A DNA stretch of 64,000 nt, from assembly GCF_003762835.1 (NCBI RefSeq), contig NZ_RJWA01000008.1, forward strand, positions 124,001-188,000, read 5' to 3'. Each line of letters opens with the position of its first letter. Within the stretch, counting starts at the first letter, position 1. Of this stretch, positions 9,471 through 25,025 are shown in pieces. Made by a program: the position numbers and the translations under genes. Source of the stretch: Micromonospora sp. HM5-17 (GTDB taxonomy: Bacteria; Actinomycetota; Actinomycetes; Mycobacteriales; Micromonosporaceae). Under the pieces are notes generated by a model. The model did not search any database. It worked only from the letters and a program-made list of their open reading frames with translations, and was not told the origin of the DNA.

Positions 9471-9473
9471 GCC

Positions 9474-11060
9474 TCACTCCTTCCACACCGCCGGCACCGG
9501 GGCACCGACGTCCCGCACCTCGTCGTCGTACTTCTCACCGGACTTCTCGCCGGCCGGGTCCGCGGCGCCGCGGTCCGGCGCGGGCCGCGCCCGGGTGAAC
9601 CGGTCGAGCAGCTCGCGTTTGACCACCTTGCCGGCCGGGTTGCGGGGCAGCCGGTCCAGCACGAGCACCTCGGTCGGCAGCTCGTGCCGGGCCAACCGGT
9701 CGAGCAGGAACCGGCGCAGCTGGGGGAGATCCGGACCGTTGGTGCCGGCTCGGGGTACGAGGGCGGCGGCGACGGCCCGGCCGAGCACCGGGTGGGGTAC
9801 GCCGAGCACCGCCGCCTCGGCGATGTCGGGATGCGCGTGCAGTGCCGCCTCGACCTGGATCGTGGAGACCTTGTCGGCACCGGACTTGATCACGTCCTGT
9901 TCCCGGTCGACCAGGTAGAGGTAGCCCTGCTCGTCCAGGTAGCCGAGGTCGCCCATCCGGACCCAACCGGCCCGGAAGGTCTGTCTGGTCGCCGCCGCGT
10001 CACGGTAGTAGCTGCGCGGGTACGGCGAGCGGAGCCAGACCTCGCCGGTGGCTCCGGCCGGGAGGCGGCGCCCGCTGGCGTCCCGGATGGCGATCGTGCC
10101 GTCGGCGGCGCGTCCCACCGACCCGGGACGCGCGGGGTCGACGATCATGCTGACCTGGGCCGGCGCCGCCTCGGTGGAGGTGTAGTAGTTGACGATCGTC
10201 GCCTCGGGCAGCCGGCGGGCGAGCTGCTCGGCGACCCACGGCGGCAGCGGTGCCGCGGTGGAGCCGAGGAGGTGGACGGCCGAGAGGTCGTACGCGTCCA
10301 GCGCGCCGGAGTTGAGCAGCTCGATCGCCATCGCCGGGACGACGAAGAGCGTCCCCACCCGGTACTGTTCGGCCAGCCGGGCGAAGCGACCCGGGGTGAA
10401 CTGCGGCGGCGACAACGCGGTTGGGTGGGCGTCCAGCGCGTTCCACAGCATGGTCTGGGCGGCGTTGGTGCCGATCGGGAACGCGTGCAGGAAGTGTGCG
10501 GAGTGCCGCAGCCGCCGCCGGCGGGGGTCGGTGACCGCCCCGGCGGTGAGGTTGGCGTGGCTGGCGGCGACGCCCTTCGGACGGCCGGTCGTGCCGGAGG
10601 TGTAGAGGATCTGGGCGAGGTCGTCGGGGCGTACCCGCACCGTCGGAGGTGGTGCCCCGGCGGCGCGTAGCTCCGGCACGGTCGCCGACCAGACGCCCAG
10701 GTCGGGCACGGGAGTGCGACCGGCGTGCAGCACCGCGACCGCGCCGCAGTGCCGGACGATGTACCGGGTCTCCGCGGGGGCGAGGCGGTCGGAGCTGGGC
10801 ACGGCCACCCCGCCGGCCCGCTGGACTCCGCAGTAGGCGACGGCAAAGTCGGCCCAGTCGCGGCTACCGAAGTGCAGCACCACCCGGTCGCCGGGTCGCA
10901 GGCCACCCTCGTGGAGCGCCCCGGCGACCGCGGCCGACCCGGCGTGCCACGCACGGAACGTGAGCCGGGCGACCAGCGGCGTCTCGATCGCCACCCGGTC
11001 GGGCTGCGCCGCTGCGCGCGCCGCCAGCAGCGCCGGCAGCGTACGCGTCGTGCTCGGCAC
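9474..11060 (-). CDS. Acyl-AMP/acyl-CoA ligase, first gene of the NRPS operon
   Basis: Class I adenylate-forming enzyme of about 528 residues. Visible motifs are the P-loop [16 protein letters not shown], the A5-like NYYTSTEAAP, the hinge MGDLGYLDEQGYLYLVDR with KSGADKVST, and the catalytic C-terminal lysine in NPAGKVVKREL. There is no fused carrier domain. It most likely activates a carboxylic acid, perhaps a fatty acid, for the discrete carrier at 5971-6252, giving an N-acylated peptide; substrate and transfer step are inference. It lacks the HNFPLSSPG-type region expected of a dihydroxybenzoate-AMP ligase. The reading frame is open to 11195, but a promoter at 11182-11211 places transcription start near 11175, so GTG at 11060 is chosen. 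The downstream NRPS starts 3 nt after its stop. Confidence 0.88.
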   Translation of the reverse strand: MPSTTRTLPALLAARAAAQPDRVAIETPLVARLTFRAWHAGSAAVAGALHEGGLRPGDRVVLHFGSRDWADFAVAYCGVQRAGGVAVPSSDRLAPAETRYIVRHCGAVAVLHAGRTPVPDLGVWSATVPELRAAGAPPPTVRVRPDDLAQILYTSGTTGRPKGVAASHANLTAGAVTDPRRRRLRHSAHFLHAFPIGTNAAQTMLWNALDAHPTALSPPQFTPGRFARLAEQYRVGTLFVVPAMAIELLNSGALDAYDLSAVHLLGSTAAPLPPWVAEQLARRLPEATIVNYYTSTEAAPAQVSMIVDPARPGSVGRAADGTIAIRDASGRRLPAGATGEVWLRSPYPRSYYRDAAATRQTFRAGWVRMGDLGYLDEQGYLYLVDREQDVIKSGADKVSTIQVEAALHAHPDIAEAAVLGVPHPVLGRAVAAALVPRAGTNGPDLPQLRRFLLDRLARHELPTEVLVLDRLPRNPAGKVVKRELLDRFTRARPAPDRGAADPAGEKSGEKYDDEVRDVGAPVPAVWKE

Positions 11061-11181
11061 CGGACCACCCCCCGTGTGTCCGCGCGGCCGTTCCGGCCGG
11101 CCGCGCCCGCGACCCCGCACATCCCGGATCACCACCGGTCGAGGGCCGACGGCATGGCGAAACTTCCGGAGATTGACCGGA

Positions 11182-11211
11182 AACGTAGTGAGCAAGTGTT
11201 ACCAATGTCAA
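11182..11211 (-). promoter_or_regulatory. Promoter of the ligase-NRPS operon
   Basis: On the minus strand a perfect -35 TTGACA (11211-11206) is followed after 18 nt by TACGTT (11187-11182), a 4/6 match to TATAAT. It lies in a local AT-rich island between the divergent ligase and MFS genes. Predicted transcription start is near 11175, giving a leader of about 115 nt. Confidence 0.55.
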
Positions 11212-11491
11212 TCCCAGATTTGGGTGCAACGGTCCGGCCGAGCCGTCCGCCCTGCTGTCCAGATGTCATGATCGGCGGGTCGCCGACCCGGAAAGTGCTC
11301 GATGCGGGACCGAAACTTTCAGAGTCGGGTCGCCGGCTCGGCCCGGTACCGGACGATCTGTGCCCGGTTCGGGGCGCCGGCGGGCCGGCCCGGCGGGTTG
11401 GTTCCCGATGACAGAATCGGCCGCGACGCTTCCCGCGCCCCACGTGTCGGCGACGGGGCGTGCCTGAGCGACCGTCACGCGAGAGGACGCG
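11212..11491. promoter_or_regulatory. Divergent intergenic region with two inverted repeats
   Basis: This gene-free stretch before the MFS exporter holds a perfect 13-nt palindrome with arms GGGTCG/CGACCC (11277-11289) and a spaced repeat GAAAGT ... ACTTTC (11291-11296 and 11315-11320). Either could be an operator for the exporter; no clear -10/-35 pair is seen on the plus strand. Confidence 0.3.
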
Positions 11492-12847
11492 ATGAGCACC
11501 ACGGGGGAGAGCGGGTCCGGCTGGTTCCGTAGCCCGCTGCGGCCCTTCCGGAGCGGGCAGTATCGGCTGCTCGTCGGCGAGCTGATCATGTCGTTGTTCG
11601 CCGCGGGCGTCTGGATGATCGCCATCGTCTGGCAGGTCATCGCGATGGGCGGAGGCCCGGGTACCCTCTCCGCCGTTACCGCCTCGATGGCGGCCGGCAC
11701 GGTGGTCAGCACACTGCTGGGCGGGGTTCTGGCGGACCGGATTCCGCAACGGCGGATCCTGCTCGCCGTCGCCACCGTCCGGACCGCGGTCGCCGGCGTG
11801 GTGGCGCTGCTGGCGGTCGTGGAGTGGCTGCGGCTATGGCAGCTCGTGGTGGCGGCGTTGCTGATCGGCGTCGGCAACGGCTTCAACTATCCGGCCTATT
11901 CGGCCCTGCTGCCGTCGCTGCTTCCCCCGGACGACCTGATGGCCGCCAACGGCATCGAGGGGATGCTCCGACCCACCATCATGCAGGCGGCCGGCCCGGC
12001 GGTCGCCAGCGGGCTGATCGCCGCCTCGTCACCGAGCGCCGCGCTGGTCGCGGTCACCGTGCTGGAGGTGGCCGGGGTCGCGTTCCTGTTCGCCCTGCGT
12101 CCGGTGCCGCTGCGGCACGACCACCCGGCCACATCCGCTCACCCGGTCCGCGCCGCCCTGGTCGACCTGCGGGACGCCTTCGTCTACATGGGACGCACGC
12201 CGTGGTTCCTCGCCACGCTTCTCTTCGCCTCGATCGTGATTCTCCTGGTCATGGGCCCGGTCGAGGTGCTGGTCCCCTTCGTGATCAAGGATCGGGTCGG
12301 CGGCGGCCCCGCTGACCACGCCCTGGTGATGGCGGCCTTCGGCATCGGCGGGGCCCTCGGCTCCCTCGGCATGGCGTCGCTCCGGATGCCGCGGCGCTAT
12401 CTGACGATCATGAATCTCTTCTGGGGCTTTGGCTGTCTGCCGCTGGCGCTGGTCGGCGTCTCCGACACGGTCTGGCTGATCGCCGCCGCGACCTTCGTCG
12501 TCGGGGTCTGTTTCTCCGCTCCCATGGCCATCTGGGGCACGCTGCTCCAGCGGCGGGTGCCGGCCCACATGCTGGGCCGGGTCTCCAGTCTTGACTTCTT
12601 CGTCTCCCTCGCCTTCATGCCGCTCTCCATGGCCGTCGCCGGTCCGGTCAGCAGCGCCATCGGGCTCGGCGCGACGTTCGCGGTCGCCGGCCTGCTTCCG
12701 CCCGTGCTCGCTGTGCTCGCGATCGTGCTGGCCCGGATGCCCGAGGACGAGCGGGCGCACCCGCTCGACGTACCCGGGGAGCGCCCCGAGCAGGGGCCGG
12801 ACGAGCTGGCCGGGATCGGCGTTTCCGGCGAGGTCGGACGCCCGTGA
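11492..12847 (+). CDS. MFS exporter, EntS/MFS_3-like
   Basis: A 451-residue major facilitator transporter with about twelve hydrophobic segments. The usual loop signature after TM2 appears as GGVLADRIPQRR, and the centre has a basic loop (RHDHPATSAHP). The arrangement resembles the enterobactin exporter EntS and other MFS_3 drug/siderophore exporters. It is divergent from the NRPS operon, so export of or resistance to the peptide product is the natural inference. ATG at 11492 follows GAGAGGACGCG. The protein ends in a Pro/Glu/Gly-rich cytoplasmic tail. Substrate cannot be told from sequence. Confidence 0.88.
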   Translation: MSTTGESGSGWFRSPLRPFRSGQYRLLVGELIMSLFAAGVWMIAIVWQVIAMGGGPGTLSAVTASMAAGTVVSTLLGGVLADRIPQRRILLAVATVRTAVAGVVALLAVVEWLRLWQLVVAALLIGVGNGFNYPAYSALLPSLLPPDDLMAANGIEGMLRPTIMQAAGPAVASGLIAASSPSAALVAVTVLEVAGVAFLFALRPVPLRHDHPATSAHPVRAALVDLRDAFVYMGRTPWFLATLLFASIVILLVMGPVEVLVPFVIKDRVGGGPADHALVMAAFGIGGALGSLGMASLRMPRRYLTIMNLFWGFGCLPLALVGVSDTVWLIAAATFVVGVCFSAPMAIWGTLLQRRVPAHMLGRVSSLDFFVSLAFMPLSMAVAGPVSSAIGLGATFAVAGLLPPVLAVLAIVLARMPEDERAHPLDVPGERPEQGPDELAGIGVSGEVGRP

Positions 12848-12973
12848 ACCGGCGGTTCCGCCCGTCCGGACCCGGATCGCGGCGCACCGGCCGACCCGAA
12901 CCGCCGAGGTGGAGCGCCCGACCGGAGGTGGGCCGCGGAGATGCCGGCGGGGCACCCTCCCGATCGTCTCCGC

Positions 12974-13402
12974 TCAGATCTGGTCGTGGAACGGATCGTG
13001 CCCGATGAGGTCCAGGAACGCCTCCCGGATGTCGAGCCGGATCGGCTCGCCCCGCTCGACGTGTTCCCGGACCTGCTGAAACAGCGGCATCAGCAGCCGG
13101 GTCTCCTCGGTGGAGACGACGGCCACCAGCGGGGCGAGGGCCTCCCGCTCGATCTCGATGCCGACGACGGCGGTGCCGGGGATCGTGGAGAACCGGAACG
13201 GTCCCAGTCGTTCCACGGCGACCGACGGCACCCGCTCGGTGCCGGGCGTCCGTCCGGCGGCGCGTAGCGCCGCGATGCGTTCGAGCTGGTACTGCGCCAG
13301 GGCGCGGAGCGTGGTCGGCTTCTCGGGGTTGTCGCGGATCTCCCGGAGTCGCCGCTCGATGTCGTCGAGGCCGGTCGGGTCGTCATCCACTGGGCCGGGC
13401 AT
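12974..13402 (-). CDS. Small conserved-looking protein of unknown function
   Basis: Predicted soluble protein of 142 residues that I do not recognise. The N-terminal third is charged and helical (DDIERRLREIRDNPEKP). The rest alternates short hydrophobic strands (AVVGIEIEREALAPLVAVVS) with a helical C-terminus (FLDLIGHDPFHDQI). There is no signal peptide, membrane segment or metal motif. ATG at 13402 is the first start after an Arg-rich, probably untranslated stretch. It converges with the MFS exporter and is divergent from the vWA/MoxR operon. Codon bias fits a real gene. Confidence 0.65.
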   Translation of the reverse strand: MPGPVDDDPTGLDDIERRLREIRDNPEKPTTLRALAQYQLERIAALRAAGRTPGTERVPSVAVERLGPFRFSTIPGTAVVGIEIEREALAPLVAVVSTEETRLLMPLFQQVREHVERGEPIRLDIREAFLDLIGHDPFHDQI

Positions 13403-13474
13403 CACCAGAGCGTATCGACGCCTGCGCCGGCCCCGTCGCACACCGGGTGCGAGGCCGGGCCGCCAACTCGGCCT

Positions 13475-13487
13475 ATTATCCTAGGAT
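13475..13487 (-). promoter_or_regulatory. Palindrome with a -10-like element in the 13403-13887 gap
   Basis: The 485-nt gap between the unknown gene and the SWIM gene is otherwise featureless GC-rich DNA. At 13478-13487 there is a perfect palindrome ATCCTAGGAT, overlapping a minus-strand GATAAT that could serve as a -10 for the gene starting at 13402. No gene with convincing coding character was found in the gap. Confidence 0.3.
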
Positions 13488-13887
13488 GGTGTACGGGGTG
13501 TGCTCCGGCTCTCCCGGGACAGACCGCCGCTCCCGCCGAGCAAGGTCGAACCGCGACCGTGCCGAAACCGCCCCGGGGCCGGTTCACCCCGACCAGGTGG
13601 GAAGGAGGAGGACGGGCCGAGCAGCGTTCCCCGGCAGCCGGCCACCGGGCGGGGGGACCAGGGCGTCCCTGGAACCCGGATCCGTCACCGGCACCGGGCC
13701 CCGTACTCGGGACCGTGTGGGCGCCCGCCACATCCGGCGACGGTCCTCGCCCAGGATCTGTCCACTAAGTCTGTCTACTGCGGACGGAGAGGTCCGGGAT
13801 CGGCGCTGCCGGAAGCGATGTCGTCGGTCCGCAAAATGTCGTCCGGCTGCTCTATGGTCATCCGGCACCGAACGGAAGGACAAGATC

Positions 13888-14391
13888 GTGGACGCGGTCA
13901 TGGTCGGCTGGGAGCGGCACAGCACGGCGCGAGTGCTGCCACCCGTGCAGCCGCGGAAACTGGCGAAGGTTCCCTTCGTGGAGCTGGCGGACGGACGGTT
14001 ACAGGGCGTCGTCTCGAGTGGTTCGGACGTGGAGCGGGTGTACGTCTCCTCGGTCGTCGCCGGCTCGCACGGCTACAGTTGCAGCACCAACAACAACCGG
14101 CCCTGCGGCGGGTTGCGGGGAACGCCGTGCAAGCACATCCAGGCGCTCCTCGAGGAGGCCGTGGTGCAGTACGGCGTAGCCCGGGTGGCCCGCTACCTGC
14201 GCATCGACGTCGACGACCCGGACTGCACCGACCTTGACCTGCTCCATCGGCTGCGCGGCGGTCCCGAGTCGATCCCAGCGGCGGTGGTCTTCAGCCGGTT
14301 CCTGCGCCACCTCGCCTACCTGGAGGTGCCGGAGTCCACGGAGCCGGTTCCCGAACTGCACTGGTTCCCGGCGACGAGGGTGGGACGCTGA
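13888..14391 (+). CDS. SWIM-like zinc-finger protein, YehQ-like
   Basis: A 167-residue protein, first of five overlapping genes. A Cys/His cluster sits at C65, C73, C81 and H83; the terminal CKH fits the CxH half of a SWIM zinc finger, while the first half is not the usual CxC. SWIM proteins accompany vWA and MoxR genes in the E. coli yehL-yehM-yehP-yehQ group, and this locus has the same partners. The role may be nucleic acid or protein binding (inference). GTG at 13888 has an ideal GGAAGGA 7 nt upstream; ATG at 13900 is an alternative. The reading frame is open to 13447, but that extension is Arg-rich and lacks a ribosome site. Its stop overlaps the next ATG by 1 nt (TGATG). Confidence 0.78.
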   Translation: MDAVMVGWERHSTARVLPPVQPRKLAKVPFVELADGRLQGVVSSGSDVERVYVSSVVAGSHGYSCSTNNNRPCGGLRGTPCKHIQALLEEAVVQYGVARVARYLRIDVDDPDCTDLDLLHRLRGGPESIPAAVVFSRFLRHLAYLEVPESTEPVPELHWFPATRVGR

Positions 14392-15794
14392 TGCGGGGCA
14401 CACACCTGGCCGAGCTGTTCGACGGCGCCGACCCGGGCGTCGCCGATGCGCTCGACGTGGTCTCCGGTTTCGACGAGGCGTTGGTGCCCGGCCTGGCCCG
14501 GGTCGGCGCGGAGCAGCAGAGTCAGCTCGCAGCCCTCGCCGGCGCCGTGGCGGTGACGCCGCTGCGGGAGCGGACCCGGGAGGCGGTTGAGAAGGTGGCC
14601 GCCGGTTCGTTCGGCGACGAGCACCTGGCCATGCTGGCGGGTGCCCGGACCGCGCTGCTCGGTGCCGTGCACGATGCGCTGCTGGAGCGGCTGGACACGG
14701 CACTGGGCCGGCCCCGGGCGACGTGGGCGACGGCCGAGGCACCCGCGCCGTCGGTTTCGGAGAACCTGATGGCCGGTGTCCGGTCGTGGCTGCGGGAGGT
14801 CGCGATCGCCGGCTGGCGCGGCGTTGACCACGACCTGGTCTCGGCCTCCGCCCAGACCGCGGAGGCGGTGCTGGCGGTGCCGGCGCTGCGCCGGTTGGCG
14901 GTGCTGCTCGACGGTCTGGCCGCGGAGCTGCGGGCGTCCTGTCCGGTGGCGACGATGGAGCGGTTGCCGCTCCGGCGTTGGGCCGACCTGTGGTCGCGGG
15001 CGTTGTTGCTGGCCCAGCCCGGCGGGTTGCCGGGGTCGGCCGCGACCCCGGTCTCGGGACGGCTGCTGCCGCTCGGGGTGGACGTGCACGAGCACGGCAC
15101 GGCGGTGCAGGTGCAGGTGCACGCCGTCCTCGAGTCCGCCGACGTCCCGCCCCGCCTGGTCCGGACGAGCCTCACCACCGCGAAGGTGGAGACGATCGTC
15201 GGCCCGGCGGTGTGGCGGCTGCTGCGTGGCGCGCCGGTGCTGTTCAAGGCGCTCGCCGAGCACCGCGCGCTCGAGATCACCGACGTTCCTCTGTTGCCCG
15301 GCGGGGATCTCGTGTGGCAGGACGGGAGCGCCCGCCCGGGGGAGACGGTGGAGCCGTTCGCCACCGCCCGCCTCCACCTCGGCACCGCCCTCGCCCCGGC
15401 GGTGCCGCCGCTGGAGCGCCACCCGGTACGCATCGCCGAGCCGGTCCTGCTCGAGGGATACGCCGTGGCGGTGTCCGAGGAGGGAGAGAGCCGGCTGGAC
15501 GTCGACGGGCAGGCTCTCACCGTCGACGTGGCCCGGCTGCCGGGCTGCGGCCCGCTCACCCCCGACCTGGTGGCGGCCTCGTCGGCATGTCTGGGGCTGG
15601 TCCGCTGGGACGGGGGGCGCTGGCTGCTGCAACCCCTCGCCGTCCAGGTTCGGAACAGGCGGGGCACCACCGAGGCGCACACCGCGGACTGGGCGCTCGG
15701 TCCCACCGACCCCAAGGTGGTCCGGGCCGAGGCAAGGGCCGGGGACGCCGTGGCGGTGCTGCGCGAGCGGGCGGGACGGTTGCTGCGGCGATGA
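14391..15794 (+). CDS. Unknown protein of the vWA/MoxR operon
   Basis: A 467-residue predicted cytoplasmic protein with no signal peptide or membrane segment. The N-terminal half is Ala/Leu-rich and helical (residues 1-190). The C-terminal half (about 230-460) is richer in strands, with repeated Val/Leu patches and WDGGRWLLQPL near residue 405. I see no catalytic motif and do not recognise a domain. Its position between the SWIM and vWA genes, with 1-nt and 4-nt overlaps on either side, implies that it is an integral component of the same complex. It may correspond to the large part of YehQ-type proteins, but that needs profile comparison. Confidence 0.8.
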   Translation: MRGTHLAELFDGADPGVADALDVVSGFDEALVPGLARVGAEQQSQLAALAGAVAVTPLRERTREAVEKVAAGSFGDEHLAMLAGARTALLGAVHDALLERLDTALGRPRATWATAEAPAPSVSENLMAGVRSWLREVAIAGWRGVDHDLVSASAQTAEAVLAVPALRRLAVLLDGLAAELRASCPVATMERLPLRRWADLWSRALLLAQPGGLPGSAATPVSGRLLPLGVDVHEHGTAVQVQVHAVLESADVPPRLVRTSLTTAKVETIVGPAVWRLLRGAPVLFKALAEHRALEITDVPLLPGGDLVWQDGSARPGETVEPFATARLHLGTALAPAVPPLERHPVRIAEPVLLEGYAVAVSEEGESRLDVDGQALTVDVARLPGCGPLTPDLVAASSACLGLVRWDGGRWLLQPLAVQVRNRRGTTEAHTADWALGPTDPKVVRAEARAGDAVAVLRERAGRLLRR

Positions 15795-17377
15795 GCGGAT
15801 CCCAGGTGACGGCGCCGACCGGCGCCGAGCTGACCACGACGCCCGGCGGCGAGCCGGAAACCGCCCGGTCGACGGCGGACGAGAACCGGCGACAGGTGCT
15901 CTACTGGCGGCTGCTGGCGCGGCTCTTCGATCCCGAGGAGCAGCCATCGCTCGAGGCGGCGAGCGTGGCCATCGTCGACGATATCGGGCTGCCGGCGGCG
16001 CTGCTGGACCCGACCGTGTCGGTGGACACGCTCGTGCAGCGGTTCCCGGAGCTGGCCGCCGAGTTCGAGGGCCTGATGGCGCCCCCGGACGCCGGCGGGC
16101 CGGCACCGGCGGAGCACGGGCCGACCCAGGGACCGGCCGCCGGCCCCGACTCCCAGACCGCCGGCGCGGGCGAGGAGGGCACGGCCCCGGGCGGCGGTGC
16201 CGTCGGGGTGCCGGCCGTCGACGTCGAGGCGGCGCCGCGGTCGGGTCCGCGCGACCACACCACGGCGTCCGAACAGCCCGCGGCACCCGGTCTCGACCGG
16301 GTGGCACCGGTCGGGGCGGCCGAGGTACGGCGAGCCGCGCTGGTCTCGAAGCTGCTGCTGAACGTCTTCGCGACCGGTTCGGGCGAGGTCACCGCGACCG
16401 ACCTGGCCCGGTGGCAGTCCGACGCCGGCTGGTTCGAGCGGGCGCTGGGGTGCGAGGCGGGCCAGCTGCGCGGGCGCCCCGGGGCGAGCGAACTGGGCGG
16501 CGTGCTGGCCGGCCTGGAGGGGGATCTCGTCCGCCGCATGCGGCTGCGCGAGGTTCTCGCCAATTCGGCGCTGGCCCGGCAGCTGACCCCGAGCATGTCG
16601 CTGATCGAGCAACTGCTCCGGGACAAGGCCAACCTCTCCGGGGTGGCCCTTGCCAACGCCAAGGCGCTGATCCGCCGGTTCGTCGACGAAGTCGCCGAGG
16701 TGCTGCGTACCCAGGTCGAGAAGACCAGCGTGGGAAAGATCGACCGGTCGGTGCCGCCGAAGCGGGTGTTCCGCAACCTGGACCTGGAGCGGACCATCTG
16801 GAAGAACCTGACGAACTGGAGCCCGGAGGACCAGCGGCTCTACGTCGACCGGCTCTACTACCGGCACACCGCCCGGCGGACCACCCCGGCCCGGCTCATC
16901 GTGGTGGTGGACCAGTCGGGGTCGATGGTCGACGCGATGGTGAACTGCACCATTCTGGCCTCGATCTTCGCCGGGCTGCCCAAGGTGGACGTCCACCTGG
17001 TCGCGTACGACACCCGGGCGCTGGACCTGACTCCGTGGGTGCACGACCCGTTCGAGGTGCTGCTCAGGACCCAGCTCGGCGGGGGCACCGACGGCATGGC
17101 CGCGTTGCAGCTGGTCCGCCCCAAGGTCGCCGAACCGAAGAACACCGTCCTGGTCTGGATCTCCGACTACTACGAGTCGAATCCGCAGGGCGTCTTCGAG
17201 GCACTGGCGGCGCTGCACCGGTCCGGGGTCCGGGTGATTCCGGTCGGCTCGGTGAACAGCGGCGGACAGCAGAGCGTCAATCCCTGGTTCCGGCAGCACT
17301 TCAAAGACCTCGGTACGCCGGTCATCTCCGGCCACATCCGAAAACTCGTGTTCGAACTCAAGAGCTTCCTCAGCTAG
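15791..17377 (+). CDS. vWA domain (MIDAS) protein, YehP-like
   Basis: A 528-residue protein. The N-terminal region (1-60) is helical and is followed by a low-complexity Pro/Gly/Ala linker (about 95-175). A helical middle region comes next, then a vWA domain from about residue 365. The metal-ion-dependent adhesion site is complete: DQSGSM near residue 373, the threonine loop in GGGTDG and the acidic WISDYYES. Such proteins pair with MoxR AAA+ ATPases, the vWA domain linking the ATPase to its client. The start overlaps the previous stop (ATGA at 15791-15794). A MoxR gene follows 12 nt downstream. A long shadow frame extends to 14978 but overlaps the previous gene entirely, so the ATG at 15791 is preferred. 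Confidence 0.9.
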   Translation: MSGSQVTAPTGAELTTTPGGEPETARSTADENRRQVLYWRLLARLFDPEEQPSLEAASVAIVDDIGLPAALLDPTVSVDTLVQRFPELAAEFEGLMAPPDAGGPAPAEHGPTQGPAAGPDSQTAGAGEEGTAPGGGAVGVPAVDVEAAPRSGPRDHTTASEQPAAPGLDRVAPVGAAEVRRAALVSKLLLNVFATGSGEVTATDLARWQSDAGWFERALGCEAGQLRGRPGASELGGVLAGLEGDLVRRMRLREVLANSALARQLTPSMSLIEQLLRDKANLSGVALANAKALIRRFVDEVAEVLRTQVEKTSVGKIDRSVPPKRVFRNLDLERTIWKNLTNWSPEDQRLYVDRLYYRHTARRTTPARLIVVVDQSGSMVDAMVNCTILASIFAGLPKVDVHLVAYDTRALDLTPWVHDPFEVLLRTQLGGGTDGMAALQLVRPKVAEPKNTVLVWISDYYESNPQGVFEALAALHRSGVRVIPVGSVNSGGQQSVNPWFRQHFKDLGTPVISGHIRKLVFELKSFLS

Positions 17378-17389
17378 GAGACCCCTCAC

Positions 17390-18505
17390 ATGACCGATGA
17401 CCTGTTGCGCGCCCCCGCCGAGGTGAAGTACGCCGACGAGCTCGACTGGCTGGAGTCGATCGACGACGGCCCCAAGCCGTTCTCATGGCGGCTGAGCCCG
17501 CGGATGGTACGGATCTTCGTGCTCGGCTCGGAGCCGTCGGACGGACTCGAGCGGGAGATCCCGCAGAAGTGGTTCGGCGACCGGAGCCTCGTCGAGCGCA
17601 GCATCGTGACGCTGGCGTCGGACCGGGGTCTGCTGCTGATCGGTGACCCCGGCACCGGCAAGAGCTGGCTCGCCGAACTGCTCGCGGCCGCCATCTGCCG
17701 CACCTCGACCCTGGTGGTCCAGGGCACCGCCGGCACCACCGAGGATCACATCAAGTACTCGTGGAACGTCTCGATGGTGATCGCCCGCGGACAGTCCCGG
17801 GAGTCGCTGATCCCCTCGCCGATCATGACGGCGATGGAGCGCGGCGTGATCGGTCGGTTCGAGGAGCTGACCCGGGCGACCAGCGACGTCCAGGACGCGC
17901 TGATCTCGATCCTCTCCGAGAAGTACGTCTCGATCCCCGAACTCGACGATGACAACATCGTCTTCGCCAAGCCCGGCTTCTCGATCATCGCCACCGCGAA
18001 CAGCCGGGACCGCGGGGTCAACGACCTCTCCTCGGCGCTGAAGCGGCGGTTCAACTTCGTCCGGATCCCCGTGGTGACGAACAAGCGCAGCGAGGCGGAG
18101 ATCGTCCGGTTCCGCACCAGGGAACTCCTGCGCCGGCACCAGATCACGCTGGACGTACCGCCGAACCTGCTGGACATCCTGCTGCGGAGTTTTGCCGACC
18201 TGCGCGCGGCGGCCGCCGCGGCCAGCAGCGACGACGAGAGGCTGGAGTCGGCGCTCTCGACCGCGGAGCAGATCGGCGTCCTGGAGGACGCGATCCTGCA
18301 CAGCCACTTCTTCGGCGACCGGACGCTGCGGCCCGCGACCCTGGCCAGCTCGCTGGTCGGCTCGCTGGCCCGCCGCAGCCCGGAGGACCTCGCCATCCTC
18401 AACAAGTACTGGCACGGCGTGGTGGAGCCGCGCAGCAAGTCCGAGGGCGGGGACTGGCCCGAGTTTCTCGAGGGGGGTCGGCGGGCGATCGCCACGCTGT
18501 CATGA
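17390..18505 (+). CDS. MoxR-type AAA+ ATPase, YehL-like
   Basis: A 371-residue AAA+ ATPase. Walker A is GDPGTGKS at 85-92. A Walker B-like segment GRFEELTRA (about 155-163) has Glu-Glu in place of the usual Asp-Glu and is followed by the MoxR signature region VQDALISILSEK. Sensor 1 is IIATANSRD, and arginines in LKRRF (219-220) could be the finger. MoxR ATPases act as chaperone-like remodelling machines with vWA partners, and YehL is a named MoxR subfamily. ATG at 17390 follows GGAG. The stop overlaps the next ATG by 4 nt. The Walker B variation is a point to check in alignment. Confidence 0.92.
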   Translation: MTDDLLRAPAEVKYADELDWLESIDDGPKPFSWRLSPRMVRIFVLGSEPSDGLEREIPQKWFGDRSLVERSIVTLASDRGLLLIGDPGTGKSWLAELLAAAICRTSTLVVQGTAGTTEDHIKYSWNVSMVIARGQSRESLIPSPIMTAMERGVIGRFEELTRATSDVQDALISILSEKYVSIPELDDDNIVFAKPGFSIIATANSRDRGVNDLSSALKRRFNFVRIPVVTNKRSEAEIVRFRTRELLRRHQITLDVPPNLLDILLRSFADLRAAAAAASSDDERLESALSTAEQIGVLEDAILHSHFFGDRTLRPATLASSLVGSLARRSPEDLAILNKYWHGVVEPRSKSEGGDWPEFLEGGRRAIATLS

Positions 18506-21489
18506 CGACGAGCATCGACGAGTCGGCGGGCCGGGGCGCGGAGCCGGCCCCGGCCCGCCCGGCCCCGGGACCGGACAACGAAGCGGGCCGCTCGGCTCCA
18601 CACCGTGGCGTGGCGGCCCTGGCCCAGTCGCCGTTCGCCCCGTTGCGCCACCAGCTGCAGGAGGCCGCGGCGGCCTTCGCCGACGGTCCCGACGGGCTCG
18701 CCGGCATCCTCACCGGGATGGTCGACGACGTCGACCGGGCGCTCAGCGAGGAGCTGGAGATCTTCCCCGTCTGCCACCACTCGCCGGCCTCCGCACTTGC
18801 CATGGCGCGTCGCCTGCGCGAGAAGCAGCCGCAGGTCATCTACCTCGAGCTCTGCGAGGACCTGCGGCCGCTGCTGGACGAGTTGCGCAACTGTCGGCTT
18901 CCGGTGGCGTTGCAGGCCTTCGCCTCCGACCTCGACGGGTTCCCGGCGGCGTGGGGGCCACTCAGTGTGGTCGCGCCGATCTCGGAGGCGTCCGCGGAGT
19001 ACCAGGCGATCGCGTACGCGCTCGACACGCCGGGGGTGGAACTGGTGCTGGTCGACCGCTCGGCCGACCACGTCTTCCAGTGGCAGTCCGATCCGCCGGC
19101 CCGGCGCGGCGCTCCGGCCGAGGAGGACGGTGTATCCCATGGTGAACCGGATCCGTCGGCGGCGGAGGAGGCGGCGCTGCACGGGGACGCCGTCGGCGTC
19201 GAGATCGGTGACCTCCGGCCCCGGTTCGCCGAACTCGAGGCGTACCTGCTGCACCACGGTCGGGTGCGGCACTGGTCGGAGTGGTGGGACCAGTACGTCG
19301 AGCAGCCGCTCTCGGGCGCCGACTACGAGACGTACCGGCAGGTCATGGTGATGATCGGCAGCCTGTTCCGGCGGCTGCGCCGCGGGGACGAGGCCCGGGC
19401 GGATCGGGACGAGGACCGCGAGCGCTACATGTGGACGCGGATGCGGCAGCACCTGGCCGCCTCCGGCGTCGACCGGTCCCGCTGCCTGTACGTCTGCGGC
19501 GCCTTCCACGCGGCCAGCCCGGTGCCGGAGTTCGGCACCGCGCCCGGGACACCGGATTGGGAGATTCCCGCCCGCACCGGCACCCGCTGGCTGTACGGCC
19601 TGATCCCCTCCAGCTACTCGGCGATCGAGGCGCAGTTCGGGCTCGCCCCCGGCTCGGTGTCGATCGCCCAGGCGACCTGGGCCAAGGCGGTCAGCCGCAG
19701 CGGCGTGGTGCCGTACCGGTTGGCCGGCCAGAGGTCCGGCCGTAGGCGGGCGGCGAAACCGGTGCAGACCCCGGCGCCGAAACCGGTCACCGATCGACTG
19801 TCGGAGTTCCTGTCCCGACCTCCCGTGCTCGACGACCTGGACGAGGCGGAGCTGCTCGGCTGGTGCGTCGATATCGTCCGGCTGGCCCGGCGTAACGGCT
19901 ACCAGGCGAGCACCGCCGACGCGATCGCGGTCTTCGAGACGTCGATCCTGTTGGCGGGGATGCGTAACCGGGCCCGGCCCACCCCCTACGACTTCGCCGA
20001 CGCGGCGGTGACCTGTATCGAGAAGGACGTGGTGCCGGGGCGTCGTGACGTTCGCCGGCTCTGCGAGATCCTCCTGGGCGGCGACCGGATCGGTCAGGTC
20101 GGTTACGACGCCCTGCCGCCGCTGGTCCGGGACGTTTTCGACCGGCTGGCACCGCTGGGCCTGCCGTTGGAGAAGCGTACGGTGCAGCGGGCGTTGCTGG
20201 ACCTGACCGCGCGTCCGGAGCTGGTGCCCTGCTCCGACCTGCTGTGGGTGCTACGGCGCCTGCTGCCGGAGGGGATCGTCCGGCCGATCATGGGTGAGCG
20301 GCGGTTGGGTGAGCGCTCCATCCAGGAGAGTTGGGACCTCTGGCTCGGCCGGCACCAGCGCGCGATCATCGAGCTGAGCTACGAGGGCGTCACCGTCGAG
20401 CAGGTGCTGGAAAAGCGGCTGCGCCGGGCGGTGTGGGCGCCGGACGCCACCGTCGCGGTCGCCCTGGCCGCGGTCGAGGACGCGATCCTGTATCTCGGCA
20501 ACCAGCGCTTCGTCAACGAGCTCGGGGCGCGGGCGGTGGAGTTGCTGGCCGCCGAGCGTACGGTCGACGACGCACCGGAGGTGCTGCGCCGATTCCGTCG
20601 CCTGCTGGCGTACTACCGGACCGCGGAGCCGGAGCTGCCGGCCTGGTGCGACGAGTTCGCCACCGCCGGCTACGCCCACTACTGCACGTTGTTGCCGACC
20701 GCGTTCCTCGAGGAGGAGACCGGGATCCGTCAGGTCGCCGCGATGCTCGGCTTCCTCTTCTCCATGGAGAGCCTCGCGCTCGCCCTCGGCTGTGACCGGA
20801 CCCAGCTGGAACTCGCGGTACGCCAGTCGCACCCGGAGGCGCCAGCCAAGGTCGCGCTGCTGTGGGCGGCCCGGGTGCAGCTCGGGCTGCTGTCCCAGGC
20901 CGAGCTACGTGCGCGCTGCGACGAGATGCTGGGCAACCCGCTTGTCGTGCCCGCGTTCCCGCAGTACCTGAGCGGGTTCGTCCAGGCCCTGGAGCCGGTC
21001 CCGACGCTGGCGGCGTTCGTGGTCGAGATCATGTCGAAGGCATTCGCCCGACTGCCCGATTCGGTGCTGCTGCCGTGGCTTCCCACCCTCATCACCACGC
21101 TGCGCGGGCCAGGGGCCGAGTTGGTGCCGGTGTTGGTGCGCGAGGCCGCCCGGACGTTCCCGGCCCGGCTCCCGGCGCTCGACTCCTGGGTGCCGCCGTG
21201 GGCGACGCCGACGGACGGAGACGACGCGGCCGGGAACACCGCGGCGGAGCCGAGCGGCGGCGGGGAGGCGGCGTCGGGACCGCTGGTCGACCTCCTGCTC
21301 GCCCAGCCGGCGACCACGGACGCGGTGGCCGAGCTCGTCGGCTGCGCCGCGGCGGGCTGGCGGTCAGTGGGTGGCACCGACGGCGCGACGGGGGGCGGTG
21401 ACGGTACGGCCGGGACGGGCGCACTGCGGGCCCTGCTCGGCCGGCACGGCGCGACCGCCGACGTCGTCGCCGCACTGCTCCGGCGGTAG
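18502..21489 (+). CDS. Large DUF5682-like protein, YehM-like
   Basis: A 995-residue protein, last gene of the operon. Near residue 90 it has FPVCHHSPASALAMARRL followed by VIYLELCEDLRPLL, a block typical of DUF5682-family proteins. A conserved-looking CGAFHAASP occurs near 335. The C-terminal two thirds is a long helical repeat-like region of Leu/Ala/Arg helices ending in a low-complexity tail. There is no transmembrane segment. DUF5682-type proteins are regular partners of MoxR/vWA pairs; the biochemical role is unknown. It could be the scaffold or client-binding arm of the complex (inference). ATG at 18502 overlaps the MoxR stop. Confidence 0.82.
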   Translation: MTTSIDESAGRGAEPAPARPAPGPDNEAGRSAPHRGVAALAQSPFAPLRHQLQEAAAAFADGPDGLAGILTGMVDDVDRALSEELEIFPVCHHSPASALAMARRLREKQPQVIYLELCEDLRPLLDELRNCRLPVALQAFASDLDGFPAAWGPLSVVAPISEASAEYQAIAYALDTPGVELVLVDRSADHVFQWQSDPPARRGAPAEEDGVSHGEPDPSAAEEAALHGDAVGVEIGDLRPRFAELEAYLLHHGRVRHWSEWWDQYVEQPLSGADYETYRQVMVMIGSLFRRLRRGDEARADRDEDRERYMWTRMRQHLAASGVDRSRCLYVCGAFHAASPVPEFGTAPGTPDWEIPARTGTRWLYGLIPSSYSAIEAQFGLAPGSVSIAQATWAKAVSRSGVVPYRLAGQRSGRRRAAKPVQTPAPKPVTDRLSEFLSRPPVLDDLDEAELLGWCVDIVRLARRNGYQASTADAIAVFETSILLAGMRNRARPTPYDFADAAVTCIEKDVVPGRRDVRRLCEILLGGDRIGQVGYDALPPLVRDVFDRLAPLGLPLEKRTVQRALLDLTARPELVPCSDLLWVLRRLLPEGIVRPIMGERRLGERSIQESWDLWLGRHQRAIIELSYEGVTVEQVLEKRLRRAVWAPDATVAVALAAVEDAILYLGNQRFVNELGARAVELLAAERTVDDAPEVLRRFRRLLAYYRTAEPELPAWCDEFATAGYAHYCTLLPTAFLEEETGIRQVAAMLGFLFSMESLALALGCDRTQLELAVRQSHPEAPAKVALLWAARVQLGLLSQAELRARCDEMLGNPLVVPAFPQYLSGFVQALEPVPTLAAFVVEIMSKAFARLPDSVLLPWLPTLITTLRGPGAELVPVLVREAARTFPARLPALDSWVPPWATPTDGDDAAGNTAAEPSGGGEAASGPLVDLLLAQPATTDAVAELVGCAAAGWRSVGGTDGATGGGDGTAGTGALRALLGRHGATADVVAALLRR

Positions 21490-21643: not shown

Positions 21644-23884
21644 TCACCGGACGGCGGCGTCGCGGAGCGCGCGGGCGGTCGCCGTGCCGGTGAGGCCCGC
21701 GACCGGACCCTGGTAGAGGATCTGTCCGCCGTGCCGGCCCGGCCCCGGTCCGAGATCGACAAGCCAGTCGGCCCGCCGGATGACGTCGAGATTGTGTTCG
21801 ATGACGACGACGGTGTGCCCGTGCGCCACGAGGTTGTCGAGCACGTTCAGCAGGGTGTCGATGTCGCGCAGATGCAGTCCGGTGGTGGGTTCGTCGAGGA
21901 CGTAGAGCGTCGGGCCGGTGGCGTCGCGCAGCTCCTTGGCGATCTTGACGCGCTGGCATTCGCCGCCGGAGAGGGTGCTCAGCGGTTGGCCGAGCCGCAG
22001 ATAGCCGAGACCGACCTCCTCGAGATGACGCAGGGCCCTCGTGATCGCGGGGTCGGCCAGCCGGCGGACCGCCTCGGCGATGGTCAGATCGTCGACGTCG
22101 GCGATGGAGAGCCCGTCGACCCGATACCGTAGGACCTCGCGGGTGAAGCGCCGCCCCTGGCAGGTATCGCACACGGTCTCCTGGCCCTCCATGAAGGCGA
22201 GGTCGGTGTAGATCACCCCGAGGCCCTTGCAGTCGGGGCAGGCACCCTCGGAGTTGGCGCTGAACAGGCCGGCCGGTACGCCGTTGTGGCGGGCGAACAG
22301 TCTCCGGATCGGGGCCGCGATGCCGGTGTAGGTGATCGGGGTCGAGCGGCGGTTGGTGCTGACCGGCCGCTGGTCGATCACCACGGCGTCGTGCTGGGCG
22401 ACGAGTTCGGCGGCGAGACTGGACTTCCCCGAGCCGGCGACGCCGGTGAAGACGGTCATGACCCCGGTCGGGATGTCCACCGTCACGTTCTTCAGGTTGT
22501 TGCGGGTGGCGGCGGCGATGGTGACGGCGCCGCGCGGTGTCCGCGGCCGCTCCTTGACCGGCCGCTGCCGGGCCAGCGCGGTGGCGGTGGGCGTGTCGGC
22601 TCGCCGGAGTTCGGCGAAGGTGCCCTGGAAGACGAGCCTGCCGCCGCCGTCGCCCGCGTCCGGCCCGATCTCGACGATCTGGTCGGCGATCGCCATGACG
22701 GCGGGATCGTGCTCGACGACGAGGACGGTGTTGCCCTTGTCGCGTAGCCGCTGCAGCAGGGTCGTCATGGCGGCGACGTCCTGCGGGTGGAGTCCGACGG
22801 TGGGCTCGTCGAAAACGTAGATCATCTCCACCAGGCTGCTGCCCAGGTGCTTGACCGTCTTGACGCGTTGTGACTCGCCACCGGACAGCGTGGTCGTGGC
22901 GCGCCCCAGGTGGAGATACCCGAGCCCGATGGTGACCAGCGCGTCCAGGCGCGCTGTCAGGGCGGCGACGACCGGCGCCACGGCCGGCTCGCTCACCCTC
23001 GGCACCAGCGCCGCGAGTTCAGCGATCTCCATTCGCGCCATCTCGCCGATGGTGTGGCCGAGCACGGTGGCGGTGCGGCTCGCCTCGTTGAGCCGGTCAC
23101 CGTGGCAGTCGGGGCACACCGTGGAGCGGGTGAACCGGGCGATGACCTCCTGCTTACGGTCGGACAGGTTGTCGGGTGTACGGAGGTAGATCCGTTCGAA
23201 CCGTTCGACGACCCCCTCGTAGTCCTTCGGCGGTCTCCTGCCGAGTCGAGCGGCGTGTTCGCCGCCGAACAGGAGTGCGTCCCGTTCGGCCTGGGTCCAG
23301 TCCCGCAGCGGTGTGTCGGGGTCGAACGTGCCGATGTCGGCGTACTGGGCGTACCAGTAGCCCCCGTTGCCGAACCCGGGCAGCAGGATGGCGCCGTCCT
23401 TCAGCGACCTGTCGAGGTCGAGGAAGCGGTCGACGGCGCTGACCACCACCTCGCCGAGCCCGGAGCACGTACGGCACATGCCGGCGGGATCGTTGAACGA
23501 GAAGTGGTTCGACTCGCCGACGTACGGCGTACTCACCCGGGAGAACAACAGCCGCAGGTACGTCCACGCGTCCGTGACCGTGCCGACCGTGGACCGGGCG
23601 TTCCCGCCGATCCGCCGCTGGTCGATCACCACCACCGGGGAGAGGCCGTCGATCTGGCTCGCCTCGGGCCGGGCCCACTTCGGCAGCCGGTTGCGGACGA
23701 ACGGTGGAAAGGTCTCGTTGAGCTGGTAGCCGGCCTCCGCGGCGATCGTGTCGAAAACCAACGACGACTTGCCCGACCCGGACACTCCCACGAAAACCAC
23801 CAGCTGCCCGCGTGGCAGGACGAGGTCGAGGGATCTCAGGTTGTTGGTCCGGGCTCCGCGGATCTCGATCTTTCGCTGGTACAT
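21644..23884 (-). CDS. Short UvrA-like ATPase (DrrC-type)
   Basis: A 746-residue member of the UvrA family, about 200 residues shorter than housekeeping UvrA. It has two ABC ATPase halves: Walker A GVSGSGKSS and GVAGSGKSS, and signatures LSGGESQRVK and LSGGECQRVK. Zinc-finger cysteines are kept (CRTCSGLG, CPDCKGLG, CDTCQGRRF). Short UvrA-like proteins such as daunorubicin-resistance DrrC bind DNA near intercalating drugs and protect producers; others have unknown roles. ATG at 23884 starts the conserved KIEIRGARTNNL; the frame is open to 24055 but that would overlap the divergent WYL gene. The 64-nt gap suggests shared control. Drug protection is inference. Confidence 0.88.
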   Translation of the reverse strand: MYQRKIEIRGARTNNLRSLDLVLPRGQLVVFVGVSGSGKSSLVFDTIAAEAGYQLNETFPPFVRNRLPKWARPEASQIDGLSPVVVIDQRRIGGNARSTVGTVTDAWTYLRLLFSRVSTPYVGESNHFSFNDPAGMCRTCSGLGEVVVSAVDRFLDLDRSLKDGAILLPGFGNGGYWYAQYADIGTFDPDTPLRDWTQAERDALLFGGEHAARLGRRPPKDYEGVVERFERIYLRTPDNLSDRKQEVIARFTRSTVCPDCHGDRLNEASRTATVLGHTIGEMARMEIAELAALVPRVSEPAVAPVVAALTARLDALVTIGLGYLHLGRATTTLSGGESQRVKTVKHLGSSLVEMIYVFDEPTVGLHPQDVAAMTTLLQRLRDKGNTVLVVEHDPAVMAIADQIVEIGPDAGDGGGRLVFQGTFAELRRADTPTATALARQRPVKERPRTPRGAVTIAAATRNNLKNVTVDIPTGVMTVFTGVAGSGKSSLAAELVAQHDAVVIDQRPVSTNRRSTPITYTGIAAPIRRLFARHNGVPAGLFSANSEGACPDCKGLGVIYTDLAFMEGQETVCDTCQGRRFTREVLRYRVDGLSIADVDDLTIAEAVRRLADPAITRALRHLEEVGLGYLRLGQPLSTLSGGECQRVKIAKELRDATGPTLYVLDEPTTGLHLRDIDTLLNVLDNLVAHGHTVVVIEHNLDVIRRADWLVDLGPGPGRHGGQILYQGPVAGLTGTATARALRDAAVR

Positions 23885-23948
23885 GCGGCCCACCGTAGGA
23901 CCAGATGTGGCCGGAAAATGACCGCGACTGACGGCGAGAATGGTGCCC

Positions 23949-25025
23949 ATGGCCGACGTCACCCAACGAGTCCTCGCCCTGCTGGCGGCGCTGCAGACGG
24001 GTCGGGCGTTCACGGGCGACGAGTTGGCGGCCCGCCTCGACGTCAGCCCACGCACCCTCCGCCGGGACGTCGACCGCCTGCGCCGCTACGGGTATCCCGT
24101 CGAGACCCAGCCAGGACCTGGTGGCTACTACCGGCTCGCGGCGGGAACCGCCATGCCGCCGCTCCTGCTGGACGACGACGAGGCCATCGCGGTCCTGCTG
24201 GGGCTGGCCACCCTTGCCTCGACCGGCAGCGCCGTCGAGGGAAGCCTGGACGACGCGGCGACCCGGGCGTACGGCAAGGTCGACCAGTACCTGCCCCGGC
24301 GGCTGCGCGGCCGCGCGGCGGCGCTACGCGCGAGCCTCGAAACCACGCAGGTCAGCGCGCCCAGCACCCGTGCCGAGACGATGAGCGCGCTCGCCAGCGC
24401 GATCCACCACAGGCGCCTCGTGACCTTCGACTACGTCAGCGCGACCGGGTCCCCGACCGCACGCCGGGTCGAGCCGTACCGCCAGATCCACCACAGCCTG
24501 CGCTGGTACCTGCTCGCCTGGGACGTCGACCGGAGCGACTGGCGGGTCTTCCGTACGGATCGCATCACCAACCTCCGCGAGCCCGGCGGGGCCTTCACCC
24601 CACGCCCCCTGCCCGCCGACACCGGCCTCGACTATCTGCGCCGAGGTCTCGACCGGCACCGGCAGCGGGTCGTCCTGACCGTCGAGGCCCCGGTCACCGC
24701 GGTGGCGGACGCGTTCCGCTACCAGGACGCCGAACTCACCGCCGTCGCCCGGGACCGTACCCGGGCCGTCGTGGCGCTCGACTCCTGGCAGTGGCTCGTG
24801 CTGAACCTCGCCTTCCTCGACGCCGATTTCACCATCCACGAACCCGTCGCCTTCCGGACGGCGTGCGGTCGCTTCGGCGCCCGGCTACACGGCGGTGCGC
24901 GACCCGCGCCCGACACCGAGTCGACCGCTGCTGCGCCGACCGGGACCGGCGCGGATCGCCCGGACCCGACCGTGACCCGCCCGCAAACCGTCGGCGGTGA
25001 ACCCGGGCGGGCCGGCTACCCGTGA
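23949..25025 (+). CDS. HTH-WYL transcriptional regulator
   Basis: A 358-residue DeoR/YafY-type regulator. The N-terminal winged HTH (residues 1-60) contains ARLDVSPRTLRRDVDRLRRYG. The WYL domain (about 140-210) has FDYVSATG and HSLRWYLLAWD, and a WCX-like C-terminal region follows. The last 40 residues are a disordered Pro/Thr tail. WYL domains sense ligands, including nucleic acid products, and several act in stress or defence. It is divergent from the UvrA-like gene across 64 nt, so it probably controls that gene and itself. ATG at 23940 is also possible; 23949 gives the conserved start. Confidence 0.88.
   Translation: MADVTQRVLALLAALQTGRAFTGDELAARLDVSPRTLRRDVDRLRRYGYPVETQPGPGGYYRLAAGTAMPPLLLDDDEAIAVLLGLATLASTGSAVEGSLDDAATRAYGKVDQYLPRRLRGRAAALRASLETTQVSAPSTRAETMSALASAIHHRRLVTFDYVSATGSPTARRVEPYRQIHHSLRWYLLAWDVDRSDWRVFRTDRITNLREPGGAFTPRPLPADTGLDYLRRGLDRHRQRVVLTVEAPVTAVADAFRYQDAELTAVARDRTRAVVALDSWQWLVLNLAFLDADFTIHEPVAFRTACGRFGARLHGGARPAPDTESTAAAPTGTGADRPDPTVTRPQTVGGEPGRAGYP

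Follow-up and report, generated by a model that had tools for sequence, protein, structure and literature searches.

A five-gene MoxR-vWA-DUF5682 operon in Micromonospora, a putative protein-remodelling machine related to yehLMPQ of Escherichia coli

What do five tightly joined genes with a MoxR ATPase among them build together, and which process does the product serve? The question is raised by an operon in Micromonospora sp. HM5-17, at positions 13888-21489 on the forward strand of the window, by which we mean the whole stretch of 64,000 nucleotides (nt) analysed here (contig NZ_RJWA01000008.1, positions 124,001 to 188,000). An earlier interpretation made from the letters alone, hereafter the sequence-only reading, had listed five genes with overlaps of 1-4 nt and a gap of 12 nt before the MoxR gene, and the coordinates of the open reading frames (ORFs) confirmed this layout: three of the junctions overlap, by 1, 4 and 4 nt, and the fourth has a gap of 12 nt. 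The genes look like the parts of an ATP-driven protein-remodelling machine that may be complete. We suggest, with a probability of about one half, that the operon encodes a MoxR-vWA chaperone that acts on a DUF5682 partner and is equipped with a recognition module. The genes are as follows.

13888..14391, + strand: gene 1, SWIM-like zinc-finger protein P0001, GTG start, 167 amino acids (aa)
14391..15794, + strand: gene 2, protein P0002 without a Pfam or NCBIfam family, 467 aa, overlapping gene 1 by 1 nt
15791..17377, + strand: gene 3, CoxE-type, YehP-like vWA protein P0003, 528 aa, overlapping gene 2 by 4 nt
17390..18505, + strand: gene 4, YehL-type MoxR AAA+ ATPase P0004, 371 aa, 12-nt gap after the vWA gene
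18502..21489, + strand: gene 5, DUF5682 (YehM-like) protein P0005, 995 aa, overlapping the MoxR gene by 4 nt

The same five genes were recovered by a codon-usage caller trained on relatives, which preferred a GTG at 18610 as the start of gene 5. Relatives were collected by scanning one genome per species in 84,980 species; 539 stretches encode relatives, and the best 80 were used. A start codon permitting the -1 overlap of genes 1 and 2 was present in 68 of 78 related loci, and start codons permitting the -4 overlaps in 78/79 (genes 2 and 3) and 71/79 (genes 4 and 5), while the gap between the vWA and MoxR genes was 0-60 nt in 77 of 79. Because matching overlaps are available in the relatives, the coupling of the genes exceeds chance. 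All five genes were found on a single strand in the order SWIM-gene 2-vWA-MoxR-DUF5682 in 78 of the 80 loci, and the two exceptions (L085 and L135) begin at contig ends. The MoxR, DUF5682 and vWA genes occurred together in 79/80 of these window-type loci, the remaining locus being truncated where its contig ends. The commonest neighbour family outside the five core families reached only 8/80 loci. Since the five genes are constant and the neighbour families recur in no more than 8 of 80 loci, the unit is conserved and its surroundings are not. The five genes are one inherited unit, as the sequence-only reading had claimed; it had named a failure to co-occur as the result that would speak against it, and the neighbourhood survey found no such failure.

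The DUF5682 protein was matched in 17 of 41 genomes of relatives, namely in the own genome, strongly in 15 others and weakly in one (G017). All 15 strongly matching relatives keep the five genes in the same order by tblastn, which also sees two genes that an ORF picker lost (gene 1 in L028, gene 5 in L030); G017 (locus L034) has the classical order MoxR-DUF5682-vWA instead. In the family to which the genome belongs, 86 of 150 genomes matched, 76 of them strongly; the other 10 matched only weakly, so that 76/150 are counted as window type, with G203 and G218 matching in two pieces. The type is rare phylum-wide, at 2/149 genomes by the DUF5682 alignment and 5/296 by the gene-2 profile, the own genome being included in both counts. 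It was also present in 5 of 72,556 plasmid records, some of them chromosome-sized and one a Streptomyces megaplasmid. The best 80 loci come from Micromonosporales, Streptosporangiales and two Streptomyces. A tree of 79 DUF5682 proteins needed 4 changes of order (the minimum possible is 2), compared with 25.6 in shuffles, and the Micromonosporales occupy more than one place in it. The tree largely follows the bacterial orders and, apart from some exceptions, reflects descent within them. L097 is absent from the DUF5682 gene cluster (79/80), hence from alignment A4 and the tree, and the tree does not include the window protein; alignment A5 comprises 77 of 79 rows plus the window, with L135 and L141 omitted.

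The identity of the proteins was supported for three of the five by family models. The MoxR protein matched Pfam AAA_5 at 4.1e-37 and shared 41% identity with E. coli YehL over 365 columns. By comparison with YehL alone among the subfamilies, it belongs to the YehL subfamily of MoxR AAA+ ATPases. The vWA protein matched VWA_CoxE (PF05762) at 6.9e-31, with 32% identity to YehP, and is a CoxE-type vWA protein with a MIDAS motif. The motifs of the two proteins are located as follows.

17642..17665, + strand: Walker A of MoxR, GDPGTGKS, residues 85-92, in 80/81 alignment rows, one row gapped
17855..17875, + strand: Walker B region of MoxR, RFEELTR (E-E, not D-E), in 80/81 rows, one row gapped
16910..16924, + strand: MIDAS DxSxS of the vWA protein, D374, S376 and S378; Thr433 at 17087-17089, Asp459 at 17165-17167

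Walker A and the KRRF residues are invariant in the MoxR alignment and sensor-1 is conserved, and the ATPase motifs of the window protein are intact. The usual form of Walker B is D-E; in its place FEE occurs in 80/81 MoxR rows (one gapped), and also in E. coli YehL. The MIDAS is complete in the window protein (D374, S376, S378, T433, D459), as the sequence-only reading had stated. In the vWA alignment its D, S, S and D are present in 80/80 rows, and position 433 is Thr in 47 and Asn in 33. The kinship with YehL proposed by the same reading, as well as its naming of the vWA, ATPase and DUF5682 components, also held.

The DUF5682 protein was harder to place. A full-length hmmscan of the 995-aa sequence gave no Pfam family at E up to 0.1, and yet its N-terminal fragments matched DUF5682 (PF18934) at 1.5e-22 (80.3 bits) and 1.4e-18 (67.1 bits), and also at 67.8 bits, all above the cut-off of 26; a genome search for PF18934 gave 105.2 bits at the position of gene 5. 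The miss of the full-length scan is a warning about filters. A profile of the protein (A1) aligned with YehM over 439 columns (E 8.3e-7, probability 91.6); the protein is a DUF5682 member and a remote YehM. Its conserved part is given here.

18745..19701, + strand: alpha/beta head of the DUF5682 protein, residues 82-400, from alignments A7 and A8 (18 rows) and the model

The 18 heads comprise the window protein, three close sequences (64-78% across the full length) and 14 remote ones (17-23%). Invariant across all of them are H92, H93, P95, E116, P134, S164, E166, D185, W262, E267 and R290, followed by R306, E307, M310, G333 and H336.

In E. coli K-12, yehL (MoxR), yehM (DUF5682), yehP (vWA) and yehQ (SWIM) are consecutive genes, and the DUF4132 gene yehI lies upstream of them. 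The Micromonospora operon looks like a distant, rearranged cousin of the uncharacterised yehLMPQ, whose genes appear to be homologues of its own. The sequence-only reading had correctly named yehM, yehP and yehQ as neighbours of yehL, and had left unstated that they correspond to the DUF5682, vWA and SWIM components. The MoxR (41%), CoxE-type vWA (32%), DUF5682 and SWIM proteins are clustered in both organisms. However, the order in E. coli is MoxR-DUF5682-vWA-SWIM, while that of the window is SWIM-gene 2-vWA-MoxR-DUF5682; the window operon is without a DUF4132 gene such as yehI; its SWIM-like protein has 167 aa compared to 614 aa in E. coli; and no relation of its gene 2 to YehQ could be detected by sequence.

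MoxR and vWA stood beside DUF5682 in all 16 loci examined in this respect (14 places from the genome search, L034 and the E. coli locus L001), and the core of MoxR, DUF5682 and vWA is found again, with other accessory genes, in actinobacteria, Rhizobium, Deinococcus and Hymenobacter. The accessory set was DUF4132 with SWIM in E. coli, Iodobacter and Sinorhizobium; SWIM with DUF5691 in Deinococcus, Methylosinus (whose record has no annotated vWA) and actinobacteria; and DUF5691 without an annotated SWIM in Rhizobium and Hymenobacter. Clusters in the order SWIM-DUF5691-MoxR-DUF5682-vWA were found in Deinococcus (L150) and an actinobacterial locus (L063), and variants of them have an opposite-strand gene in between (L062) or divergent SWIM and DUF5691 genes (L055). 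Like the window operon, these clusters have five components, a SWIM gene followed by one for an unknown protein of about 500 aa, and a MoxR gene adjoining DUF5682; unlike in these clusters, gene 2 takes the place of DUF5691 in the window, without a match to it, and the vWA gene is third and not last. In the Rhizobium sp. Kim5 plasmid (L149), a DUF5691-MoxR-DUF5682-vWA cluster has, where SWIM would be expected, a hypothetical protein (5518-6495) without a Pfam match, which ranked first of 998 non-self proteins with the DUF5682-head profile (E 0.0022).

In 3 of the 16 loci DUF5682 and vWA are encoded in one open frame (L053, L056 and L059), and in L153 an annotated coding sequence of 1257 aa spans both by aligned sequence. 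These fusions in a sister subtype, seen in some actinobacteria, are the strongest indication found here that the vWA and DUF5682 proteins are in contact. L053 is a second DUF5682 locus of the HM5-17 genome itself (contig C34:374500-392500; minus strand, 6741-12308 and 12097-17685), with an ORF of 1862 aa without a Pfam match, MoxR, and then DUF5682 and vWA in one frame. As in the window, MoxR adjoins DUF5682 and vWA in L053, L056, L059 and L153, but L053, L056 and L153 differ from the window in a very long ORF upstream (without a Pfam match in L053 and L153).

The remaining two genes encode the candidate recognition module, for which the following features were delimited.

14080..14136, + strand: SWIM-like cluster of gene 1, C65-x7-C73-x7-C81-x-H83, from alignment A3
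15045..15347, + strand: first OB-like domain of gene 2, residues 219-319, from model secondary structure and Foldseek, limits by reading
15435..15680, + strand: second OB-like domain of gene 2, residues 349-430, from model secondary structure, limits by reading

The four ligands of gene 1 (C65, C73, C81, H83) are invariant in 79/79 rows. For the 467-residue protein of gene 2 the sequence-only reading had found no role, and we found neither a Pfam or NCBIfam family nor a sequence relative in the PDB; a predicted fold can now be added to this. The AlphaFold model (pLDDT 92.8, pTM 0.90, 78 sequences) is mainly helical at residues 3-207 and continues into two OB-like barrels. The first has strands at 219-234, 238-249 and 252-264, helices at 271-289 and strands at 292-301 and 314-319, and by reading of the model both domains follow the strand-strand-strand-helix-strand-strand order of an OB barrel. 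The only PDB matches below 0.001 in Foldseek were three chains of baculovirus LEF-3 (best 2.5e-4), a viral protein that binds single-stranded DNA; a separate entry showing LEF-3 bound to such DNA matched at 0.017, and LEF-3 was also first in the viral library (3.3e-4).

Two further identities were tried for these genes. Profile comparisons of gene 1 with the N-terminal part of YehQ were not significant, and gene 2 as a DUF5691 protein or as the C-terminal half of a split YehQ was rejected at the sequence level, since BLAST, hhalign and rank controls with hidden Markov models (HMMs) were negative. With the gene-2 profile, a classical SWIM protein (L062) was first of 970 non-self proteins at E 0.2, a background protein scored 0.21, and the best YehQ ranked 52nd. 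In the Iodobacter fluviatilis plasmid L152, YehQ is split into two overlapping genes (12537-14593) beside a type I restriction set; the YehQ profile finds the second of the two at 3.5e-55. Because such a split exists, the idea of a split YehQ is still conceivable for gene 2 at the level of the fold.

Taken together with the behaviour of MoxR-vWA pairs elsewhere, which act on dedicated complexes (PMC3893208, PMC7159879), we suggest that the operon would encode a single stable machine belonging to the YehL branch among MoxR-vWA systems. ATP would be used by the MoxR ring, with the vWA protein as its adaptor. The DUF5682 protein would be the dedicated partner or client, remodelled or switched by the MoxR-vWA pair. 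The SWIM-like and OB-barrel proteins would form the recognition module and probably bind nucleic acid or a nucleoprotein client. We infer that the five proteins form a complex; among the processes that it might serve, constitutive maturation, repair or stress maintenance would be likeliest, ahead of phage defence. The RavA-ViaA system likewise has a MoxR-vWA pair in an operon, but its MoxR belongs to another subfamily, and no DUF5682 or SWIM partner is described for it in the available part of PMC3893208.

Several observations weigh against this chaperone model, and most of them concern the recognition module. Canonical SWIM spacing is CxCx(n)CxH. The Cys spacing of gene 1 is unusual and lacks this form, and gene 1 gave no match to SWIM (PF04434) in Pfam. 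The matches of gene 2 to OB proteins have low TM-scores (0.20-0.27), for which reason we call its domains only OB-like, and its matches to RPA (0.13) and SSB (0.49) were not significant. The similarity of fold to OB proteins is thus tentative, and it does not prove binding of nucleic acid. Profile searches linked neither gene 1 nor gene 2 to YehQ or DUF5691. Moreover, our literature search found no biochemistry, and the DUF5682 protein could itself be an enzyme that uses the MoxR-vWA pair instead of being its client.

The last point leads to a different reading, which we consider possible, namely that the head of the DUF5682 protein is itself enzymatically active, as a peptidase or esterase of the TIKI/TraB/Ere superfamily, which MoxR-vWA would restrain or load and the SWIM/OB module would direct to its target. 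TIKI enzymes use a 2His/2Glu site (PMC6254334), and the invariant H92, H93, E116 and GxxH336 of the 18 heads are placed at or after successive strands of the P0005 model: H92 and H93 follow strand 86-90, E116 lies inside strand 112-118, and strand 328-333 ends at G333, shortly before H336. The first Glu of the 2His/2Glu site, however, has no clear counterpart by reading. At E up to 1, TraB (PF01963) matched 4/18 heads (best 0.0085) and ChaN (PF04187) 1/18 (0.13). Among 10 of the 18 heads scanned singly, 3 TraB matches and 1 ChaN match all spanned the R...GAxH stretch, which was also selected by hhalign against the TraB alignment (E 0.0046, probability 7.6%; probability 5.1 in another run). Against this, all matches are local and far below the cut-offs, and CBM46, for example, matched one head at 0.0045.

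TraB and ChaN comparators were present in 0/21 and 0/41 genomes of relatives; YbaP of E. coli and homologues from plasmids served in their place. In an HMM control with the DUF5682-head profile, two near-identical TraB proteins ranked 3rd and 4th of 998 non-self proteins (E 0.22 and 0.28), but unrelated background at ranks 2 and 5 scored alike, and the other five of the seven TraB rows were 236th or lower. The reverse TraB profile did not bring window-type DUF5682 proteins into its top 14. The full-length model of P0005 has a mean pLDDT of 69.7, mostly higher in the strand-bearing blocks of the head; it gave no PDB match below 0.001, and its best 50 matches were mostly helical-repeat proteins, without a TIKI fold. 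A sequence search of DUF5682 against solved structures returned nothing. The resemblance of the His/Glu motifs to the TIKI/TraB superfamily is therefore suggestive only, and because the matches are weak and local, the background scores alike and the model finds no PDB match, we keep the hydrolase as a rival and not as a result.

A conflict or phage-defence system driven by NTP, like the VMAP-type ternary systems, was a role that the sequence-only reading had raised, and we now regard it as unlikely. It is true that MoxR-vWA cores occur in proposed conflict systems, which are common in multicellular actinobacteria (PMC7159879), and that a link between vWA-MoxR-VMAP genes and certain type III CRISPR loci has been described (PMC10910872). 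Some loci in plasmid records also lie near restriction or nuclease-like genes, as in Iodobacter L152 (a type I restriction set), Hymenobacter L151 (a PDDEXK nuclease) and the window-type Streptomyces L147 (an N-6 DNA methylase), and a YehM relative with 27% identity to E. coli YehM was present in 1 of 50,697 phage records. However, P0005 was matched in none of these records. The VMAP, iSTAND, FtsH and beta-propeller conflict systems share the MoxR and vWA core with the window operon but differ from it in the third component and in the variability of the effector. In Pfam the five proteins matched none of the VMAP, iSTAND, FtsH or beta-propeller components, with bpMoxR far below the cut-off, and the presence of the same five families in 78/80 loci argues against a variable effector.

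In PADLOC the best matches of the core proteins were weak (MoxR to mad8 at 8.5e-5, vWA to TerY at 6.4e-4), the remaining three had none at E up to 0.1, and the NCBIfam and PADLOC scans were uninformative. Neighbours were scanned at 1e-10 for 109 of 636 eligible proteins (110-900 aa, within 4 kb upstream or 6 kb downstream), and 22 models with 1-2 members each were scattered among these 109 from 16/80 loci; as no background set was scanned, an enrichment is neither shown nor excluded. There are no recurrent neighbours (8/80 loci at most), and the tree with its 4 changes against 25.6 in shuffles largely follows orders. The phage-defence role is not supported by the tests made, so that of the sequence-only interpretation the unit, its parts and the kinship with YehL stand, and defence does not.

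Chelatases and pairs of the CoxDE or CbbQO type offer an analogy for a further reading, a metal- or cofactor-insertion maturase, in which the large subunit would hold the cofactor and MoxR-vWA would drive its insertion. The CoxE family of the vWA domain and the activation of enzymes such as methanol dehydrogenase by MoxR proteins (PMC3893208) would fit, but with neighbour families recurring in at most 8/80 loci there is no fixed client enzyme nearby, and we consider this very unlikely.

YehL is one of seven MoxR subfamilies and one of only two MoxR ATPases in E. coli K-12 (PMC3893208). Four MoxR-vWA ternary systems were named in the conflict-system survey of 2020, the main text of which, in the part available, makes no mention of YehL, SWIM, DUF5682 or TraB (PMC7159879). 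Our literature search found nothing that names DUF5682, although absence from the searched literature is not absence from print; it found two or more of yehM, yehP and yehQ together only in a genome announcement, and no functional study of DUF5691, DUF4132 or YehI was evident among the matches listed. A wider proposal, which we regard as rather doubtful, is that a further MoxR-vWA class exists beside the four of the survey and RavA-ViaA, in which YehL-vWA would drive a TIKI-like DUF5682 hydrolase head, with a SWIM finger and a tandem-OB subunit directing it to nucleoprotein. Such a class would be found in organisms as different as E. coli K-12 and hyphal actinobacteria, and its accessories would be interchangeable (YehQ; DUF5691 and SWIM; DUF4132 or very long proteins; gene 2 and a small SWIM-like protein). 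The analysis points to the proteins for co-purification and to residues for mutation, namely H92, H93, E116 and H336 of the DUF5682 head, K91 of Walker A and D374 of the MIDAS, and the question can be approached directly in E. coli K-12.

Upstream of the operon in the window, by reading of the sequence, there is an MFS-like transporter (11492-12847), and upstream of this a set resembling a nonribosomal peptide synthetase (2708-11060, minus strand) with long condensation-like and AMP-ligase-like ORFs. Directly downstream and convergent with the operon lies a gene for a UvrA-like ABC ATPase (21644-23884, minus strand, 746 aa; Pfam ABC_tran 3.2e-21, UvrA_DNA-bind 0.0018), and beside it an ORF that reads like a WYL-type regulator (23940-25025).

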